From: Flexibacter flexilis DSM 6793
GTDB lineage: Bacteria > Bacteroidota > Bacteroidia > Cytophagales > Flexibacteraceae
Reading direction: 5' to 3'
Length of the DNA stretch: 64,000 bases
NCBI RefSeq assembly: GCF_900112255.1
Contig: NZ_FOLE01000009.1
Coordinates: forward strand, 124,001-188,000
Shown: positions 1-9,040 of the stretch, piece by piece
Layout of the letters: each line of letters opens with the position of its first letter
How positions within the stretch are numbered: the first letter of the stretch is position 1
The notes under the pieces: model-generated
Told to the model about the DNA's origin: nothing
The model's database searches: none
What the model saw: only the letters and a program-made list of their open reading frames with translations
Made by a program: the position numbers and the translations under genes

Positions 1-644
1 GTTCTCAGTTTAATGGTGCGCATTACGTGGCCAAATATTGGAAAAATGGCGTAGCAAAGAACATAACGGATGGCTCAACAAATGCGCATTTTAATTCGGT
101 GTTCGTGTCGGGAAGTGATGTATATCTTGCTGGTTATGAAGAAAAGACTAATGGCAAAAAAGTGGCGAAACTTTGGAAAAACGGTGTGGCTTGGGCCATG
201 TCTGGCGGCAGTAATGATGCCATTGCAGTCAAGATTTTGATTTCGGGTAGCGATGTATATGCCGTAGGTTATGAATTTAATAGCGAAAAAACGGTGGCTG
301 TTCTTTGGAAAAATGGTCTTTATACGGGCCTCACCGACGGCTATAATGATGCCCAAGCAAGAGACATTGTACTTGTTGGTAGCGATGTGTACGTGGCTGG
401 TTATGAGTCGAATGGTTCTAAAACAGTGGCTAAATATTGGAAAAATGGCGTGGCCGTTAGCCTGACCAATGGTACGAATAATGCTGGAGCCAATACACTC
501 TATGTACATGAAGGCAATGTATATGTGGCTGGTTTCGAGTCGAATGGCTCTAAAAACGTGGCGAAGATTTGGAAAAACGGCGTAGCTACTGCGCTTTCTG
601 ATGGCCAAAACAATGCAGTAGTTCGTAGTTTGGTCGTGAAATAA
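1..644 (+). CDS. WKNG-repeat protein, 5' end outside window
   Basis: The reading frame is open to the first base (first full codon at 3), so this is the 3' part of a longer gene; the GTG at 27 is only an internal valine. The visible part has five repeats of about 44 residues, each with W-K-N-G and a later SGSDVYVAGYE-like strand, and it ends in the same way as the next three genes (R-S-L-V-V-K, stop). It is the fourth visible member of a tandem paralogue array. Only 32 bases separate its stop from the next ATG, with no terminator between, so they are probably co-transcribed. By analogy with its neighbours it should start with a lipoprotein signal and contain seven repeats. Function unknown; surface beta-propeller is an inference. 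Confidence 0.85.
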   Translation, partial: SQFNGAHYVAKYWKNGVAKNITDGSTNAHFNSVFVSGSDVYLAGYEEKTNGKKVAKLWKNGVAWAMSGGSNDAIAVKILISGSDVYAVGYEFNSEKTVAVLWKNGLYTGLTDGYNDAQARDIVLVGSDVYVAGYESNGSKTVAKYWKNGVAVSLTNGTNNAGANTLYVHEGNVYVAGFESNGSKNVAKIWKNGVATALSDGQNNAVVRSLVVK

Positions 645-676
645 AAGCTTCTAAATCAATTTTTTAATCAAAAATT

Positions 677-1711
677 ATGAAAAAATCTTTATTCCCAATG
701 CTGGTGGCTGTTTTGCTGCTAGCATTGGGTGCTACGTCTTGCAAAGACGATGATGATGAAACTGAATACATCAATCCAAATCCAGATGTGTATATGGTTG
801 GTTATCAACTCAAATCAATGGGGGTATTTGCTGGAAAAATTTGGAAAAATGGTGTTGATTCCGTGTATGGAGATACAACGAAAAGTCCTTTTCTCAATAA
901 AATATTTGCTTCTGGTAAAGACCTGTACGTGGCAGGAGAGATGCGCAATGTTGACAAATTCGCGGCCACGCTTTGGAAAAATGGCGTGGTAATGCCGTTG
1001 GCATTGGATAATAAGAATTATTCCAGTGCTTCAAACGTATTTGTGTCAGGCAACGATGTGTATGTATCAGGCCTTGTGAGCAAGGGCGGATACAATGTTG
1101 CTCACTATTGGAAAAATGGTGTGGGGCACGATTTAGCTGACAGTACCACAAACTCGCAAGCTTATTCCATTTATTCCTCTGGCAAAGATGTTCATGCGGT
1201 TGGTTATGAGTATAGAGGTTCTAAATCCGTAGCTAAATATTGGAAAAATGGTGTGGCGACGAATCTAACTGACGGTCAAAACGACGCGGCCGCGATTGGT
1301 GTAGTGGTCTCTGGTAGTGATGTATATATCGCAGGAAGAGTATCAAATGGAAGTAAGGGCGTGGCCACACTTTGGAAAAATGGTGTAGCAACCAATCTGA
1401 CCAATGGCCAAAACGAAGCCAGCGTGTCGGGCTTAGCGGTAGCTGGAAAAGACGTTTACGTGTCTGGTTGGGAGGACATTGGGACTAAATCGGTGGCTAA
1501 GTATTGGAAAAATGGCGTGGCCGTAAATTTGGGTGACGGCACAACAAAGACTTTGGCTACTTGTATTTGTGTGTACGGAGGGAATGTCTATGTCGGAGGT
1601 TACGAATGGGATGGCGTTCGTTATGTAGCCAAATGCTGGAAAAACGGTGCGGCTACTGTTCTTCCTAATCCTAAATCAAACTGTGTTGTTACAGGCATTG
1701 CCGTGAAATAA
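677..1711 (+). CDS. WKNG-repeat lipoprotein, predicted 7-bladed propeller
   Basis: 344 residues. It begins with a lipoprotein signal peptide ending L-G-A-T-S-C; the cysteine is followed by K-D-D-D-D-E, which resembles the lipoprotein export signal that sends Bacteroidota lipoproteins to the cell surface. The rest is seven repeats of about 40-45 residues, each with W-K-N-G followed by an alternating strand of type G-x-D-V-Y-V-x-G. The chain starts with a half repeat (D-V-Y-M-V-G) and ends just before the matching half (G-I-A-V-K), the pattern expected for the closing blade of a beta-propeller. The upstream A-rich tract is typical of this phylum and shows no Shine-Dalgarno. The stop overlaps an ATG at 1711, but the next gene more likely starts at 1744. 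Ligand and role are unknown. Confidence 0.9.
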   Translation: MKKSLFPMLVAVLLLALGATSCKDDDDETEYINPNPDVYMVGYQLKSMGVFAGKIWKNGVDSVYGDTTKSPFLNKIFASGKDLYVAGEMRNVDKFAATLWKNGVVMPLALDNKNYSSASNVFVSGNDVYVSGLVSKGGYNVAHYWKNGVGHDLADSTTNSQAYSIYSSGKDVHAVGYEYRGSKSVAKYWKNGVATNLTDGQNDAAAIGVVVSGSDVYIAGRVSNGSKGVATLWKNGVATNLTNGQNEASVSGLAVAGKDVYVSGWEDIGTKSVAKYWKNGVAVNLGDGTTKTLATCICVYGGNVYVGGYEWDGVRYVAKCWKNGAATVLPNPKSNCVVTGIAVK

Positions 1712-1743
1712 TGAAGTGTATCAACTATTCTCAAATTAAAATC

Positions 1744-2796
1744 ATGAAAAAGTATTCTTTTAAAATAATCGTAGTTGCGGTAGCCCTAGCCTTGGGTGCA
1801 ACGTCTTGCAAAGATGATGACGACGAAACGAAGGCAGACCCAGTGGTTTATGTTGCAGGTTATGAGTACAATGATAACCTCTCGGCGTATGTGGCCAAAT
1901 TATGGAAAAACGGCGTGGCTACCAATATTGCTAATAGTTCCAGTAGTACTGGTGGCCGATCTACGGGGTATGTGGCTAATTCTATTGCGGTTGCCAATAA
2001 CGATATTTATGTAACAGGCTATGAGAAGAAAGTTGTTGAAGGCGTGAGCGTTAAATATGTAGCTAAGCTTTGGAAAAATGGCGTAGCTACTACGCTTTCG
2101 GATACTTCTAAGCGTGGATATGGCGAACAAGTATTTGTGTCGGGTAGTGATGTGTATGTGGCTGGTTCAGAGAATAATGGCTCGGCGTACGTGGCTAAAT
2201 TGTGGAAAAATGGCGTAGCCAAAAACATCACATCTGGTACAAATGCAGCTAACTTGTACACGGTGTTTGTGTCGGGAAGTGATGTGTATGTGGGCGGCTA
2301 TGAATACAATAGTGCCAATAAACTCGTCGCGAAAATTTGGAAAAACGGCGTGGCTACTTCACTTTCTGATGGTAGCAGCGATGCAACCGTTTATTCAATG
2401 TTAGTTTTTGGTGGTAATGTGTATGCCGTTGGTTATAAGTCGATTGGGGATAACAAGATTGCGACCCTTTGGAAAAATGGCGTAGCCAGTAGCTTAACAG
2501 ACGGCAACAAGGAAGCCAGTGCCAATTCAATATTTTTGGACGGCAATGATGTTTATGTGGCTGGTTATGAGGGAAATAATGATAAATATGCTGCCAAATA
2601 TTGGAAAAATGGTGTAGCTGTAAACCTAACCGATGGCACAAACTATGCCCAAGCAACCTCCATATGTGTGCATAATGGCGATGTGTACGTGGGCGGTTAT
2701 GAAAAAAATATAGCCAAACTTTGGAAAAATGGTGTGGTTACTACGCTTTCCGATGGCCAGTACGACACACAAATAACAAGCCTTTGTGTTAAATAA
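1744..2796 (+). CDS. WKNG-repeat lipoprotein, predicted 7-bladed propeller
   Basis: 350 residues from ATG 1744. The in-frame ATG at 1711 would add 11 residues in front of a good lipoprotein signal (M-K-K-Y-S-F-K then a hydrophobic core and L-G-A-T-S-C), and it overlaps the previous stop, so 1744 is preferred. The cysteine is followed by K-D-D-D-D-E-T-K, again an export-signal-like acidic stretch. There are seven W-K-N-G repeats; the first linkers are longer than in the sister proteins. DNA similarity to the preceding gene is visible in the signal-peptide end (GGTGCAACGTCTTGCAAAGA) and in all repeats, so the genes arose by tandem duplication. Function unknown. Confidence 0.9.
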   Translation: MKKYSFKIIVVAVALALGATSCKDDDDETKADPVVYVAGYEYNDNLSAYVAKLWKNGVATNIANSSSSTGGRSTGYVANSIAVANNDIYVTGYEKKVVEGVSVKYVAKLWKNGVATTLSDTSKRGYGEQVFVSGSDVYVAGSENNGSAYVAKLWKNGVAKNITSGTNAANLYTVFVSGSDVYVGGYEYNSANKLVAKIWKNGVATSLSDGSSDATVYSMLVFGGNVYAVGYKSIGDNKIATLWKNGVASSLTDGNKEASANSIFLDGNDVYVAGYEGNNDKYAAKYWKNGVAVNLTDGTNYAQATSICVHNGDVYVGGYEKNIAKLWKNGVVTTLSDGQYDTQITSLCVK

Positions 2797-2825
2797 AACG
2801 CTCATTATTTCTAAAACTAAAAATC

Positions 2826-3869
2826 ATGAAAAAGTCTTTTCTATCAATATTAGTAGTGGCAGCTATCATTGCCTTGGGCGCAACTTCTTGCAAAAAAGAC
2901 GATGACGTCAAACCCAACCCTGATGTACATGTGATTGGTATGCAATCTCGTAAGAATAATGGCGCATTTACAGTCAAATACTGGAAAAATGGCGTCGTGG
3001 AAAATTGGACAAGTGCCGACGAGCATAACTCTGATGATGCCTCCGCCAATGCCTTGCTCGTTTCGGGTAATGATGTATATGCAGCGGGTTATTATTGGCC
3101 ATTAAACTCAACATCAGGTAATAAGCGGGCAACTTACTGGAAAAATGGTACACCTGTTTTTGTTTCTACAGAAGCCCAAGAGGCGGTGCTTACTGGTATT
3201 GCGGTAGTGGGTTCGGATGTTTATGTAGGCGGACGCGAAGAGATAGGCCTTGGTGCAAGGGCAAGGCTCTGGAAAAATGGCACACCAATTACCTTAGTAG
3301 ATGATGCTTATAATTCTGAAGTATGGTGCTTAACTTCTTCTGGAACAGATGTATATGCTTGCGGAAGATATGGTAAATTTGCTACTTATTGGAAAAATGG
3401 CGTAGCCACACGCCTCAACGATGGTACAAACTATGCTGTACTTATGGGCATGGCTATTTCGGGTACGAATGTTTATGCCATAGGTTACGAACGTGATAAT
3501 ACTACGCAACGCGATATAGCCAAATATTGGAAGAATGGCGTAGGTATTGCACTACTCAAAAGTAGTGATATTCAATACGATTCGTATGCCACTAGGATAG
3601 TTTTGTCTGGCAATGATGTACACATATTGGGGACAAAAGATGGTGCCGCCACTTATTGGAAAAATGGCGTAGAAACTGACATTAGTTTTACGAAGTCTGC
3701 TTCTACGAGTTTATCGGGCTTGGCAGTGGTAGGTTCAGATGTGTATTTTTCGGGTTGTCAGCGATTTGCGCCTAATAAATATATGGCTAAATATTGGAAG
3801 AATGGCGTAGCTGTAAATCTAACAGATACTGCCATGGCTGCGTATGCTTCCGATATAATTGTAAAGTAA
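2826..3869 (+). CDS. WKNG-repeat lipoprotein, predicted 7-bladed propeller
   Basis: 347 residues, last gene of the array. Lipoprotein signal ends L-G-A-T-S-C and is followed by K-K-D-D-D. It has seven W-K-N-G or W-K-N-G-T repeats but is the most diverged member: several blades have W-K-N-G-T-P, and loops vary in length. The final residues D-I-I-V-K match the truncated half repeat seen at the end of the other three. It is followed by a clear hairpin terminator at 3896, so the array is probably one transcript ending here. Function unknown; the predicted structure is a surface-anchored beta-propeller. Confidence 0.9.
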   Translation: MKKSFLSILVVAAIIALGATSCKKDDDVKPNPDVHVIGMQSRKNNGAFTVKYWKNGVVENWTSADEHNSDDASANALLVSGNDVYAAGYYWPLNSTSGNKRATYWKNGTPVFVSTEAQEAVLTGIAVVGSDVYVGGREEIGLGARARLWKNGTPITLVDDAYNSEVWCLTSSGTDVYACGRYGKFATYWKNGVATRLNDGTNYAVLMGMAISGTNVYAIGYERDNTTQRDIAKYWKNGVGIALLKSSDIQYDSYATRIVLSGNDVHILGTKDGAATYWKNGVETDISFTKSASTSLSGLAVVGSDVYFSGCQRFAPNKYMAKYWKNGVAVNLTDTAMAAYASDIIVK

Positions 3870-3895
3870 AATATATTTGTGTTTATTTAAATGAG

Positions 3896-3929
3896 AAAGC
3901 CGTTATCCTGATTTCAGGTAACGGCTTTT
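3896..3929 (+). terminator. Rho-independent terminator of the WKNG array
   Basis: Hairpin with arms AAAGCCGTTA and TAACGGCTTT around a short loop, then T residues. It lies 27 bases after the last stop codon. Confidence 0.85.
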
Positions 3930-4171
3930 GGTCATTACAACACGAGGCACGTATCTTTAATTTTCTTTAGGATTAAATTGAAATGATAGCAACCGATTGA
4001 CCAAATAGTTTGAAGGAACCAACTTGACATTTTGATATAAGGTAACGAAAGTAAAAGCACGTACTTTTGGGTTGTGGCCTGATGATGTACGAAGAATAAT
4101 AGCTCAAACAGCTTCGGCTTTTTTTGCTACCTTTGCTCCCATAATTTTATTATCTACACATCAAAGCAACC
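3930..4171. other. Intergenic region with promoter, no gene seen
   Basis: Together with the terminator this is a 302-base non-coding stretch. A short open frame (4072-4323) that overlaps the next gene in another frame looks accidental. The only signal I see is the -7 box at 4128. Confidence 0.6.
4128..4135 (+). promoter_or_regulatory. -7 promoter box TACCTTTG
   Basis: Exact match to the Bacteroidota sigma-A -7 consensus TAnnTTTG, 36 bases before the ATG at 4172. I see no clear -33 TTTG at the usual distance. Confidence 0.6.
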
Positions 4172-5404
4172 ATGAATTACTTAAAGTTAGGCTTAATTCG
4201 AGAATACAAAAACCCACCAGACAAAAGGGTGGCATTACTGCCAGAGCAGTGCCTCGAACTGCAAGCTCAGTATCCTTTTTTGCAAGTAAAAGTAGAATCC
4301 AGTTCGATACGTTGTGTTCCTGACGATGCCTATACCCAATTGGGAATTGAGGTAGGAGATGATATGAGTGACTGTGATTTACTCTTAGGAATTAAAGAAG
4401 TTCCCGTAGATAAACTTTTGTCAAATAAGACGTATTTGTTTTTTTCGCATACCATCAAAAAACAAGCACATAATCGTAAATTATTACAAACGGTTATTAA
4501 AAAAAATGTAAAGCTTGTTGATTATGAGTGCCTTACTAATGAGCGTGGCGAACGAATCGTTGCATTTGGCTACTACGCAGGTATCGTTGGAGCTTATAAC
4601 GGAATACGTGGTTATGGGTTGCGTTATAGCCTTTTCAATCTTAAACCCGCCAATCAGTGCCATTCGATGGCAGAAATGATTAGTACGGAATACCCCAAAG
4701 TGGCTGCGCTGCCTGCTATCAAAATAGCATTGGTAGGCAAGGGGCGTGTCGGAAAAGGAGCTAAAGATGTGTTAGATGGCATGAATATAAAGCAGGTAAG
4801 CCCAGAAGAATATTTAACGCAAACATTCTCAGAGCCTGTTTATACGCAAATCAGTTCGGCTGATTATTATGCTCGTAAAGATGGAAAAACATGGGATAGC
4901 CAATATTTTCACCAAAATCCAGCGCAAGTATATAGTACTTTTGAACGATTTGCCGCTCTAACGGATATTTTGATTACTACGGCATTTTGGCATCCAAGTA
5001 CGCCTTCCTTGTTTTCTTTGGAAGCACTGAAATCCACTGATTTTCGTATCAAGGTAATTGCAGATATTACTTGCGACATAGAAGGTTTCGTGCCATGTAC
5101 GCTCAAGGCATCAACAATAACAGAGCCATTTTTTGATTACCAACCTCATACGCATAGTCTGACAGATGCATTTTCTAATGAAAATCATGTTACACTGATG
5201 TCCATTGATAATCTTCCTTGTGAACTTCCCTACGATGCTTCCCGCGCTTTCGGTCGTCAACTTTTGGATAATGTCTTTCCTCATTTGCTTGTTGGGCACG
5301 ATTCTGAAAAGGTAGTAAAACGCGCCACAATCGCCGAAAAGAATGCACTTACTGGTTACTTCGAATATTTGAGCGACTATATTTATAGTAAAAAAGACGA
5401 ATAA
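4172..5404 (+). CDS. Saccharopine/alanine dehydrogenase-like oxidoreductase
   Basis: 410 residues. The N-terminus (L-I-R-E-Y-K-N-P then R-V-A-L-L-P) is the start of the alanine dehydrogenase/transhydrogenase N-terminal fold, and the middle has a nucleotide-binding stretch V-G-K-G-R-V-G-K-G near residues 188-196. The C-terminal part (D-I-T-C-D-I-E-G near 310, then S-I-D-N-L-P-C-E-L-P and D-A-S-R-A-F-G) is typical of Lys1-type saccharopine dehydrogenase (NAD+, L-lysine-forming) relatives. It is therefore a soluble NAD(P)-dependent amino-acid dehydrogenase; the true substrate in this phylum is uncertain. It stands alone with its own promoter box and is convergent with the BspA-like gene across a shared terminator. 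Confidence 0.85.
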   Translation: MNYLKLGLIREYKNPPDKRVALLPEQCLELQAQYPFLQVKVESSSIRCVPDDAYTQLGIEVGDDMSDCDLLLGIKEVPVDKLLSNKTYLFFSHTIKKQAHNRKLLQTVIKKNVKLVDYECLTNERGERIVAFGYYAGIVGAYNGIRGYGLRYSLFNLKPANQCHSMAEMISTEYPKVAALPAIKIALVGKGRVGKGAKDVLDGMNIKQVSPEEYLTQTFSEPVYTQISSADYYARKDGKTWDSQYFHQNPAQVYSTFERFAALTDILITTAFWHPSTPSLFSLEALKSTDFRIKVIADITCDIEGFVPCTLKASTITEPFFDYQPHTHSLTDAFSNENHVTLMSIDNLPCELPYDASRAFGRQLLDNVFPHLLVGHDSEKVVKRATIAEKNALTGYFEYLSDYIYSKKDE

Positions 5405-5415
5405 TTTTTTTGACG

Positions 5416-5458
5416 AAAAAAGCCTCTCATTGATTATACTTCAATGAGAGGCTTTTTT
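5416..5458. terminator. Bidirectional terminator between convergent genes
   Basis: Perfect 18-bp stem AAAAAAGCCTCTCATTGA / TCAATGAGAGGCTTTTTT with a 7-base loop; T runs on both strands serve the genes ending at 5404 and 5471. Confidence 0.92.
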
Positions 5459-5470
5459 CAGATCAATATT

Positions 5471-8400
5471 TTACTTCCCGATACTTACTTTTTTGGTTTT
5501 CGTTCCGTTGTCAGAAACAAGCCTTACCAAATAAATGCCGCTGCTGTAGCCCGATAAATCCAGTTGGGTATTTTCTTCTTTGTTAATGGCCATTTCGAGT
5601 ACCTTTTTACCCAACGCATATGTTACCGTAATGCGTGCATTGGCTGTGGTGCTGTTTACATAAAAAATTCCGCTGGCCGAAGGGTTCGGGTAAACCTCAA
5701 AAACATCTGCTCCTTTACCGCTGCAATTGCTTGTAGCCGTTGGCGAATAGCTGTATTTTCCATCAAAATCTGTTTGTTTGAGACGATAATAGGACGTTTC
5801 GGAAAGCGGATTTTTATCCATAAAAGCATATTGCTGCGCTTGGTTAGAGTTGCCCAAGCCTTTCAACGTACCGATTACTTCCCAGTTTTTGGTGTCCAAG
5901 CTGCGCTCAATGGCAAAAGATTCGTTGCTGGTTTCGGAAGCCGTAGCCCAACGAAGCGTTACGTTATTTTGCTGGCAATCAGCCTTAAACGAGATGAGCT
6001 TGATAGGTAAAATCGTAGTAGCGTAGCTATAAAATCCAAAGGTACTAAAGCTGCTTACTTTAAATTCAGCATACTTGATGCCTGACTCTATCCCTGTGGC
6101 TGTTGGCGTGATAAATTCTGCATTGTTGAGGCCAAGCGTTGTCATGTCGTTGACTACGTCTTGCGCCGAGCTACCCGAATGCTTGAACCAACCCGACGTA
6201 ACCGACGGTGTGGCATTGTCTGGCCAAGTATCAGTAGTCATCAAACTGTTTTCCGAAGAACTATAATACACGCGTACAATTACGCCGCCGTTGGTGGTGT
6301 AGCTACCTGGCGCAACGATTGTGTTGAGGCGTTTGCTTATGCGCAGCGTATTGCCGCCGTCCGAGAGCTGATAATAACCAGTAGGTATATTGGTAAACGA
6401 GCCAGTGCCGCCGCCAATCAAATTTCCTTGATTGTTAATGGTTATGGAGGCAGGCAAAAAACTGTTGCCATTGGCGTTCAGGGTCATATATTTGGTGGTA
6501 GCATTGGCGTTTCTAACATAATAATTGGGTTCGCAAGAAGGAATAATAGTTAGGGGTGTTACGCCAGAACTTAACAATACTGGTGCAGGCGCAAAAACAG
6601 CATCCCCCGCAATCGTCCAGCCTTTGCCGCTTACCAAATTGGTACGAAAAGCCACCGCCGCAGTTGAATATTTTCGGCCTGTTGCTCCCAAACCTCTGCC
6701 CGTAGGCGTGGCTGCATTATTACTCCAACCCGTAAGCGTAGCCGAATAATTACTACAATTCATACCGCAGTTGTTGAGCATACTGTTCATGTTTACGGCG
6801 GCGTTGAGCGTCCAAGCCCCAAGGTCTTGATTAAAGGCCGTCGCACTTGAAAACATACTCGACATATCAATCACATTGGCTGTACTCCAGCCACCAATAT
6901 TTTGATTAAAGGCCGTCGCGCTGATGAACATCGCATACATTGATATTACATTGGCTGTATTCCAAGCACTAATATTTTGATTGAAAGCCGTTGCGCCATT
7001 AAACATCGCCGCCATGTTGGTTACTTTGGCCGTATTCCAACCGCCAATATTTTGGTTGAAGGCTGGTGCACTCTGAAACATATAGGACATATTTAGCACA
7101 TTGGCCGTGTTCCAAGCCCCAATATTTTGGTTAAAAACAGTAGCTCCATTAAACATTCCTTCTATGGCCGTGACGCTACCCGTATTCCAACTACCAATAT
7201 TTTGGTTGAAAGCAATTGCCCCCTGAAACATATAAGCCATGTTCGTCACATTAGCCGTATTCCAAGCACTGATATTTTGATTAAAGGCTTTGGCCAAACT
7301 AAACATAGCGTACATACTACCTACGTTGGCCGTGTTCCAAGTGCTGATATTTTGATTAAAAACCGTTGCGCCATTAAACATATTGCTCATGTTCGTGACG
7401 CTGGTCGTGTTCCATGCTCCAATATTTTGATTAAAAACCGAAGCCCCATTAAACATGGCGGCCATAGTGTTTACATTGGCCGTATTCCAAGCGTTAAGAC
7501 TTTGGTTAAAACTCGTGGCACTCTTAAACATGCCGTCCATGGCGGTTACATTGGCCGTATTCCAAGCGTTAAGATTTTGGTTAAAGGCCGTAGCTCCGTG
7601 AAACATATAGCCCATATTGGTTACGCTCCCTGTGTTCCAGCCGCCAATATTTTGGTTAAAACTCGTAGCCGCCGCAAACATTCCGTACATAGACAATACA
7701 TTAGCCGTATTCCAAGTCCCAATGTTTTGGTTGAAAGCCGTGGCGGTATTAAACATATTGGCCATATTCGTCACATTGGCTGTATTCCACGCGCCAATAT
7801 TTTGATTAAAAACCGTTGCCCCGTTAAACATGTGGCTCATATTGGTTACGTTGGTGGTATTCCAAGCCGCAATATTTCCGTTAAAGCTCGTCGTAAATCG
7901 GAACATCCCATCCATTAAAATGGCGTTACTGGTGTTCCAAGCGTTAAGGTTTTGGTTAAAAGCTGCCGCCCCCGAAAACATATAACCCATGTTAGTTACT
8001 TTGCTCACGTCCCAAGTGCCAATATTTCCATTAAAAGCGGTTGCGCCTGCAAACATTCCGTACATGGTGGTTACATTACTCGTATTCCAGCCACCAATAT
8101 TCTGATTAAAAACCAATGCCCCATTCAACATATTCGACATATTGGTTACTTTGGTAGTGCTCCACGCGCCAATATTTCCATTAAACGCTTTGGCATTGTA
8201 AAACATATTACCCATAGTGGTTACGTTGGCTGTATTCCAGCTACCAATATTTTGATTAAAATTTTCGGCATTCCAAAACATTGCTTCCATGCTCACGGCT
8301 TTAGCTGTATTCCAGCCACCAATATTTTGATTAAAAGCCGTAGCCCCCGAAAACATATAGGAGATATTAATTACATTGGCCGTATTCCACGCGCTAATGC

Positions 8401-9040
8401 CTTGATTAAAAGCTACTGCATTTGTAAACATGGCATACGTACTGACAACATTGGCCGTATTCCAGCCGCCAATATTTTGGTTAAAAGCCGTCGCCCCCTG
8501 AAACAGCGAAGCCATATTGGTAATGCTACCCGTATTCCAACTATTGATGTTGGTAGGGGAATTAAGCGTCGTGCAATTATAAAACATCCCCCCCATGTCT
8601 GTTACACCAGCCAAATTAGGAACGTCTGTTGCAGAAATTTGTAGATTGGAGCAGCCATAAAAAGCACTATTCATGCTTGTCCAAGCCACTGCGCCCCATT
8701 GACTTACGTCTGTGAGGCGGTCGCGGTCTGCGCCGTTACTGATATTGATTCTTTGGAAATTGGTGGGGCTGATTTCTAAACGAATGTTAGTACTTGCTGG
8801 CAAACCTGTAATCGTAAGTGTTGTGCCGCTCCATGAGCCACTACCCGAAGCCCCCGACGGGAGTTGCTGCCAAGTGTAATTTACTGTGCCACTGGTGGCC
8901 GTGCCTATGCTTAGTTGCGTTGCTCCCGAACCTGCGGTAGCTAAATTCCATTGCGTAATAAAGTTTTGGGCAATAGCTGAATTATGTCCCAAAAAACAAA
9001 GTATAGCCAACAGGACTATGCTTTTGTAAATATTTTGCAT
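5471..9040 (-). CDS. BspA-type repeat surface protein with T9SS sorting domain
   Basis: 1189 residues. A signal peptide of about 24 residues ends in A-I-A-Q. The core, residues 185-759, is 23 tandem copies of a 25-residue unit of type AFNQNIGGWNTANVTNM-x2-MF-x-GAT, the DUF285/BspA-like leucine-rich-repeat family known in surface proteins of mycoplasmas and Bacteroidetes. After the repeats come a linker (about 760-1030), a fibronectin-like stretch, and a C-terminal T9SS type A sorting domain containing V-Y-P-N-P-S and ending K-K-V-S-I-G-K. The protein is thus predicted to be secreted through the type IX system and bound at the cell surface, possibly for adhesion (inference). A -7 box on the minus strand lies just upstream at 9081-9088. 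Confidence 0.92.
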   Translation of the reverse strand: MQNIYKSIVLLAILCFLGHNSAIAQNFITQWNLATAGSGATQLSIGTATSGTVNYTWQQLPSGASGSGSWSGTTLTITGLPASTNIRLEISPTNFQRINISNGADRDRLTDVSQWGAVAWTSMNSAFYGCSNLQISATDVPNLAGVTDMGGMFYNCTTLNSPTNINSWNTGSITNMASLFQGATAFNQNIGGWNTANVVSTYAMFTNAVAFNQGISAWNTANVINISYMFSGATAFNQNIGGWNTAKAVSMEAMFWNAENFNQNIGSWNTANVTTMGNMFYNAKAFNGNIGAWSTTKVTNMSNMLNGALVFNQNIGGWNTSNVTTMYGMFAGATAFNGNIGTWDVSKVTNMGYMFSGAAAFNQNLNAWNTSNAILMDGMFRFTTSFNGNIAAWNTTNVTNMSHMFNGATVFNQNIGAWNTANVTNMANMFNTATAFNQNIGTWNTANVLSMYGMFAAATSFNQNIGGWNTGSVTNMGYMFHGATAFNQNLNAWNTANVTAMDGMFKSATSFNQSLNAWNTANVNTMAAMFNGASVFNQNIGAWNTTSVTNMSNMFNGATVFNQNISTWNTANVGSMYAMFSLAKAFNQNISAWNTANVTNMAYMFQGAIAFNQNIGSWNTGSVTAIEGMFNGATVFNQNIGAWNTANVLNMSYMFQSAPAFNQNIGGWNTAKVTNMAAMFNGATAFNQNISAWNTANVISMYAMFISATAFNQNIGGWSTANVIDMSSMFSSATAFNQDLGAWTLNAAVNMNSMLNNCGMNCSNYSATLTGWSNNAATPTGRGLGATGRKYSTAAVAFRTNLVSGKGWTIAGDAVFAPAPVLLSSGVTPLTIIPSCEPNYYVRNANATTKYMTLNANGNSFLPASITINNQGNLIGGGTGSFTNIPTGYYQLSDGGNTLRISKRLNTIVAPGSYTTNGGVIVRVYYSSSENSLMTTDTWPDNATPSVTSGWFKHSGSSAQDVVNDMTTLGLNNAEFITPTATGIESGIKYAEFKVSSFSTFGFYSYATTILPIKLISFKADCQQNNVTLRWATASETSNESFAIERSLDTKNWEVIGTLKGLGNSNQAQQYAFMDKNPLSETSYYRLKQTDFDGKYSYSPTATSNCSGKGADVFEVYPNPSASGIFYVNSTTANARITVTYALGKKVLEMAINKEENTQLDLSGYSSGIYLVRLVSDNGTKTKKVSIGK
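6764..8488 (-). repeat. 23 tandem 75-bp coding repeats
   Basis: The alanine codon that opens the first AFNQ unit ends at 8488 and the one opening the last unit ends at 6838, exactly 22 x 75 bp away, so no net insertion or deletion has occurred in 23 units. Units differ at many positions (GGW, SAW, NAW, TW variants; FNQ or FNG). Confidence 0.9.

Follow-up and report, generated by a model that had tools for sequence, protein, structure and literature searches.

WKNG lipoproteins, a predicted surface propeller family of Bacteroidota whose genes tend to neighbour signalling genes

Pereira and Lupas describe beta-propellers as amplified continually out of single blades (PMC9218822). In Bacteroidota, the surface lipoprotein BtuG of Bacteroides carries a propeller (PDB codes 8blw and 8ptf), and PorA of Porphyromonas gingivalis is a surface protein proposed to relay a signal to PorXY-SigP, a two-component system with an extracytoplasmic function (ECF) sigma factor (PMC7712824). 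We describe here four tandem genes at the start of a 64,000-nucleotide stretch of Flexibacter flexilis DSM 6793 (the window; contig NZ_FOLE01000009.1, here C9, positions 124001-188000, in an assembly, G000, of 4.25 Mb and 48 contigs). They encode lipoproteins built of seven repeats marked by the motif W-K-N-G and belong to a family that is uncatalogued in the libraries searched. WKNG genes tend to neighbour signalling genes, and this linkage to sensors is the new point and the one worth pursuing.

Four tandem genes and a predicted closed ring of seven blades

The four genes lie on the forward strand. Copy 1 is complete in the genome (C9:123607-124644; 345 amino acids) but starts upstream of the window, and among the open reading frames (ORFs) of the window its 3' part is 1-644. 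Copies 2 (677-1711; 344 amino acids), 3 (1744-2796; 350 amino acids if 1744 is taken as the ATG start; the automatically called ORF opens at 1711) and 4 (2826-3869; 347 amino acids) follow. The gaps calculated from the ORF coordinates are only 32, 32 and 29 bases; the genes therefore look like one operon and are probably a single transcription unit. By motif count copies 2, 3 and 4 have seven W-K-N-G each, while copy 1 has six and one WTNG, so that both the tandem of four and the seven repeats in each of the three proteins complete in the window, as read by the first-pass annotation, were confirmed. Compared with copy 3, copy 1 is 57% identical, copy 2 47% and copy 4, the most divergent of the four, 38%, which indicates that the duplications are old. 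In a tree, copies 1 and 3 pair with 99% support by the Shimodaira-Hasegawa-like approximate likelihood ratio test (SH-aLRT), and copies 2 and 4 are placed elsewhere with weak support, a pattern compatible with one local origin or with more than one. The 4.25 Mb assembly has no WKNG match besides these four.

The AlphaFold2 models of copy 3 (from an 81-sequence alignment) and copy 4 (49 sequences) have mean predicted local distance difference test (pLDDT) values of 93.2 and 93.3, and a predicted template modelling (pTM) score of 0.88 each. Structure prediction had been set beforehand as a check on the annotation's proposal of a closed seven-bladed propeller with half-repeat closure, and both models bear the proposal out: each is a closed ring of 28 strands, three from the N terminus, six sets of four and one from the C terminus. 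This 3+1 closure agrees with the sequence, which begins at strand B and finishes at strand A. Searched against the PDB, the copy 3 model likewise matches propellers best: CylK (Z 30.8), the YVTN protein 1l0q (Z 24.9) and, lower in the ranking, BtuG1 (8blw; Z 22.8). On these models, a closed seven-bladed beta-propeller fold is near-certain. The strand limits of the copy 3 model place W-K-N-G in the tight turn joining strands 3 and 4 of the blade, and for this reason the motif is probably a structural signature rather than the binding site itself.

The ring size of seven is near-fixed in the family. Repeats were counted with a hidden Markov model (HMM) of the B-C unit and a coverage filter. By this filtered count, the one used here, 102 of 117 proteins have seven repeats, 15 have fewer and no protein exceeds seven. 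Since several of those 15 are full-length, the HMM probably overlooked a degenerate blade in them; in copy 4 the strict repeat HMM finds six of seven blades, and the motif count and the model give seven. Without the filter the HMM reports more than seven in 27 of the 117, from fragmented matches, and the loose motif W-x-[NDG]-x occurs eight or nine times in 19.

The identity of the individual blades, by comparison, has been erased. When blades 2 to 7 are compared at 19 variable positions, equivalent and non-equivalent blades score 0.617 and 0.499 in proteins that are 60-80% identical, 0.404 and 0.397 at 50-60%, 0.321 and 0.314 at 45-50%, and 0.271 and 0.267 at 40-45%. Below about 60% identity equivalent blades are thus hardly more alike than others, from which it follows that blades evolve in concert. 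The likeness between blades within one protein is 0.382, and in 7,111 of 8,953 draws a blade is closer to the other blades of its own ring than to blades from a different protein. Homogenisation or re-amplification explains this erasure, to which uniform constraint together with a protein-wide composition bias could contribute. The family is a natural case of blade identity lost while ring size is kept, and bears on how propellers evolve.

The annotation could name no described family, and none emerged from the curated libraries: Pfam and NCBIfam scans of the four proteins found no model that covers the repeat. SBBP (PF06739) has no match in the genome at the Pfam gathering cut-off and is unlisted for the four proteins at E ≤ 1, and the HAF repeat (TIGR02913) has none at the NCBIfam cut-off and is likewise unlisted; membership of the four proteins in either family was rejected on these cut-offs. 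Kelch (PF13964) was rejected for them too, being listed for copy 3 only, at 11.6 bits against a cut-off of 25.3, as was the WG repeat (PF14903), with 14 matches in the genome and none on this contig. Among 81 relatives, whole-protein E-values, given without scores against the curated cut-offs, are low for Kelch_6 in 15 (E ≤ 0.01, down to 2.5e-7), for TyrRSs_C in 8 (down to 1.3e-12), for Mpt_N in 11 and for further families; as these families are mutually unrelated and mostly not propellers, the scattered matches look like small scores summed over repeats. A PDB sequence search returned nothing with one protein and, with a profile, eight weak matches (best E 0.021) judged not credible. Phage records held no match to the family. 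The literature search, with most subscription journals outside its reach, found no paper on WKNG repeat lipoproteins and nothing joining SBBP, beta-propeller and Bacteroidetes.

The family is broad in Bacteroidota but patchy. A degenerate-pattern scan of a one-genome-per-species collection gave 252 stretches elsewhere that encode relatives, confirmed at E ≤ 1e-3, which puts the repeat family far beyond chance; the best 80, in 78 loci, were kept. By their record titles 76 of these best 78 loci belong to Bacteroidota and two to Acidobacteriota (Holophagaceae metagenome-assembled genomes, L038 and L080). The suggestion that the proteins are lineage-specific therefore did not hold, although full-length members are absent from the 10 other genomes searched in the taxonomic family, two of which (G007 and G008) have weak matches in long ORFs. 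In the class, at least 13 of 295 genomes, this one included, pass E 1e-20, a lower bound because only seven candidates per genome were scored at that strict cut-off. Tandem sets occur elsewhere, with nine genes in L017 and three each in L033 and L040, and in the tree some copies within such sets pair with counterparts in other genera (Maribacter and Cellulophaga). Xanthomarina (L064:7878-8957) and Mesonia (L081:4744-5826) encode near-identical WKNG proteins, at a tree path of about 0.04, perhaps through recent transfer between the genera. A phylum-wide propeller family for which no curated model was found deserves a name and a model.

Surface display of the propellers is likely, judging from sequence features. 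By eye, all four copies have the lipobox GATSC, in keeping with the lipoprotein signal annotated earlier, and the cysteine is followed by SKDDE in copy 1, KDDDD and then E in copies 2 and 3, and KKDDD in copy 4. PMC5080379 gives C-X-K-(D/E)2-X as the optimal surface-export signal (LES) in C. canimorsus, where SDDDD, taken from B. fragilis, is functional too. Copies 1 and 4 fit the former exactly and copies 2 and 3 resemble the looser SDDDD form, which upholds the proposed likeness to the Bacteroidota export signal; the K-D-D-D-D-E assigned to "the first two" proteins is right for the first two complete in the window but not in array numbering, where they are copies 2 and 3. Of the 89 family proteins in which a crude pattern finds a lipobox, 54 have K at +3 and only 39 have at least two acidic residues at +2 to +6. 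This pattern misses 16 of 105 proteins, in part because their N termini are cut or unusual, and it also picks up some signal peptides for which lipidation is improbable, for instance two in L072. L066 and L072 each have one protein that lacks a lipobox by this pattern and carries the type IX secretion system (T9SS) sorting tail Por_Secre_tail, which supports surface display; among the ten proteins scanned, others have stalk-like Big_2, TIG, He_PIG, fn3 or collagen stretches ahead of the propeller. The proteins of the array are probably surface-exposed, with predicted lipidation.

Signalling genes beside WKNG genes

The ORFs of the 78 loci and of the F. flexilis locus were clustered, and those within four genes of a WKNG gene were called near. 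The recurrent signalling clusters are a sensor kinase (19 loci), ECF sigma factors (10), LytTR regulators (9), anti-sigma-like proteins (9, labelled from gene place and a single span, not Pfam), TPR-CHAT proteins (8) and NarL regulators (7). Pfam finds TPR with HisKA_3 and HATPase_c, a response regulator with GerE, a response regulator with LytTR, and Sigma70_r2/r4 in cluster representatives, and further representatives are a small TPR protein and a CHAT + TPR protein. With close relatives removed, 44 of 468 near ORFs fall in signalling clusters as against 2 of 319 farther out (Fisher p 1.2e-8, counted on ORFs, which are not independent), and 21 of the 66 thinned loci have such a gene nearby. 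Signalling domains lead in a Pfam sample of 129 near proteins (Response_reg 6, AraC helix-turn-helix (HTH) 5, HATPase_c 3, Sigma70_r2 3), and these four are not among the far-set matches listed (top 25, at least two members); TPR_12 is found in 6 of 129 near and 2 of 129 far proteins.

As the discovery clusters had been chosen for recurrence, a second set was taken: 11 further loci of the class and 20 arbitrary control regions of such genomes. Signalling genes account for 9 of 85 near ORFs and 3 of 311 control ORFs, all three in one region; by locus, the rate is 5 of 11 against 1 of 20 (p 0.013).

In F. flexilis the candidate partner is a TPR membrane regulator of 611 amino acids with one span (C9:120913-122745), 0.9 kb upstream of the array and followed by a 176-amino-acid secreted protein and then by the WKNG genes. 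Regulators of this type give nine matches in eight ORFs genome-wide, itself included. Hydropathy of this regulator and of the protein in L059 shows a signal peptide, TPR, one span near residue 400 and then an output domain, and the C-terminal HTH-like end of the regulator matches Sigma70_r4_2 below cut-off. The regulator is thus predicted to have a periplasmic TPR domain, one membrane span and a cytoplasmic HTH-like end.

Sets of ECF sigma, anti-sigma-like and TPR-CHAT genes recur near WKNG genes in L062, L077, L078, L033, L040, L044, L047 and L054, of which the L062 set was covered by a Pfam scan and span check. By hydropathy its TPR-CHAT protein begins with a hydrophobic stretch and has a span at the C terminus, so that its protease domain may face the periplasm, and the order of such genes suggests that a periplasmic protease releases the sigma factor. 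A cluster with an OmpA-domain representative occurs in five loci.

Other features flank the array. A hairpin downstream of copy 4 (window 3890-3936, forward strand; fold z -5.38) is a possible transcription terminator, and one 5' of copy 1 (within L009:11505-11550; z -4.24) resembles it; L009 is this locus with DNA upstream of the window, in which copy 1 is L009:11607-12644. Sigma-70 promoter and terminator scans of window 1-5600 gave about as many hits as chance would and did not include the hairpin downstream of copy 4, for which the terminator label is therefore a guess, although the scan demands a longer T run than this hairpin has. Next come an AlaDh/PNT-like dehydrogenase of 410 amino acids (4172-5404, forward strand; N-terminal domain above cut-off, C-terminal domain just below) and, convergent with it across a very strong hairpin that is probably a shared terminator (5400-5470; z -8.89), a 1,189-amino-acid DUF285/PARCEL-repeat protein with a T9SS tail (5471-9040, reverse strand). 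The latter scores 1000 bits with Pfam DUF285 and has 21 TIGR02167 stretches, with underlying 75-base tandem repeats; the usual examples of PARCEL families are mycoplasma and Listeria-type surface proteins. Upstream of the window, a 630-amino-acid ORF (L009:3390-5282, reverse strand) has by eye a SIR2-type domain and then TPR repeats, and a short ORF of repeated NKSF units (L009:5234-5674, reverse strand) adjoins it.

Receptor, adhesin or coat

We tentatively favour, at somewhat less than an even chance, a reading in which the proteins are ligand-binding surface propellers that serve as receptor or co-receptor for the nearby trans-envelope signalling module. The four outer-membrane lipoproteins would be made from one transcription unit and their propellers flipped to the cell surface, through the lipoprotein export signal or, in some relatives, a T9SS tail. 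There, the propeller would bind an extracellular ligand, possibly by loops repeated around the ring, and its bound state would be passed to a periplasmic sensor, as proposed for PorA and PorXY-SigP. The partner here would be the TPR regulator, with its periplasmic TPR, single span and cytoplasmic HTH-like end; elsewhere it would be a sensor kinase with a LytTR or NarL regulator, or the ECF sigma, anti-sigma-like and TPR-CHAT set. Speculatively, the OmpA-type protein is one candidate bridge from surface propeller to periplasmic TPR. Of this picture, the genes with their repeats, tight spacing and linkage are shown directly; fold, lipidation and membrane topology are predictions, and exposure at the surface, binding of a ligand and the course of the signal are inferred.

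Several observations weigh against this reading. The discovery clusters were selected for recurrence at these loci, which favours near genes; by these clusters 45 of the 66 thinned loci have no such neighbour; and the sensor cluster lumps TPR kinases with LytS-like kinases such as that of L063, which apparently lacks TPR, having five hydrophobic spans in 352 amino acids. The far Pfam set also has signalling families, PAS in 2 proteins and TPR_12 in 2. The second set is small, two locus pairs share a genome, L125 shares 66% identity with L020, and L131 is represented by a fragment of 123 amino acids, without which the count is 4 of 11 (p 0.042). In F. flexilis itself, one gene and a hairpin lie between the TPR regulator and the array. 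Finally, no unique binding site is visible, because the blades have no index-specific conservation.

Nearly as likely, and a serious possibility in its own right, is that the propellers are outputs under regulation, acting at the surface as adhesins or lectins that the neighbouring sensors switch on, and play no part in sensing. A target gene beside its regulator would give the same gene linkage, and blades so nearly identical would be well suited to binding carbohydrates multivalently. In relatives the propeller is preceded by Ig-like, TIG and collagen stretches, which are usual in adhesins, and some relatives carry T9SS tails. However, Pfam and NCBIfam matched no lectin family in the four proteins, no binding residues were identified, and an adhesin leaves unexplained the use of sigma, anti-sigma-like and TPR-CHAT sets alongside several kinase types.

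Concerted blade evolution, tandem expansions (four genes here, nine in L017) and patchy distribution would also suit a low-constraint, repetitive surface filler, in which blade genes easily duplicate and homogenise and persist as a variable coat or a decoy for phages that binds little specifically. This is improbable: seven repeats are near-invariant (102 of 117 by the filtered HMM), the copies within one array match counterparts in other genera (Maribacter and Cellulophaga), and the signalling linkage would go unexplained. Least probable by our estimate is a surface lipoprotein that, in the manner of BtuG or SusD, binds a nutrient and passes it on to a TonB-dependent transporter, since no transporter was recognised among the genes beside the array, although BtuG propellers match the copy 3 model at Z about 22 and the L039_364 cluster (about 1,014 amino acids, with a SusC/TonB-like start by eye only) is found in four clustered loci (L039, L079, L085 and L091).

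The receptor reading has a bolder form, which we consider unlikely though worth stating: WKNG propellers would act as surface receptors in a so far undescribed kind of trans-envelope signalling system in Bacteroidota, one interchangeable receptor serving several transducers, with blades homogenised and the ring held at seven. With similar reservation, the transducers would be TPR one-component regulators, TPR or LytS kinases, and a relay of ECF sigma factor, anti-sigma factor and membrane TPR-CHAT protease.

The propellers are candidates for the input so far missing from Bacteroidota TPR sensors and from a sigma/TPR-CHAT relay, and the link to sensor genes gives the family a testable function.

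Comparison with known systems

PorA differs from WKNG proteins in being a T9SS-type protein with a FimH-like domain rather than a propeller, and no homology is claimed. The best structural match is the propeller domain of CylK (7fh8; Z 30.8, with 287 residues aligned at a root-mean-square deviation (rmsd) of 2.8 Å and 18% identity). CylK is a 653-residue cyanobacterial enzyme that performs Friedel-Crafts alkylation; there is no evidence of that activity in WKNG proteins. BtuG shares with them a propeller on a lipoprotein, in its case one of the Bacteroidota cell surface (8blw matches at Z 22.8, with 265 residues aligned at rmsd 3.1), but identity is 11-12%, and no BtuB-like partner gene was recognised beside the WKNG array.

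At the level of the blade, the HAF repeat has a similar length and, by eye, a similar motif order. Comparison of single repeats with hhalign is uninformative (probability 0.1 for HAF, 18.2 for SBBP and 0.2 for WG). Whole-domain profiles alone split SBBP from HAF: three SBBP proteins are matched at probability 93.3 (E 2.6e-7; reversed control 0.1), HAF proteins at 0.3. Because these are single pairwise comparisons with few SBBP rows, from the three proteins, the match is a lead for common descent, not proof. SBBP is the nearest named blade among those tested: it resembles the WKNG repeat in its layout of strand A, strand B with N-V-Y-V-x-G and strand C with V-A-K-x-N-x-x-G, and differs in that WKNG replaces the SBBP C-D hairpin and that the WKNG blades come near-fixed in sevens, in short lipoproteins.

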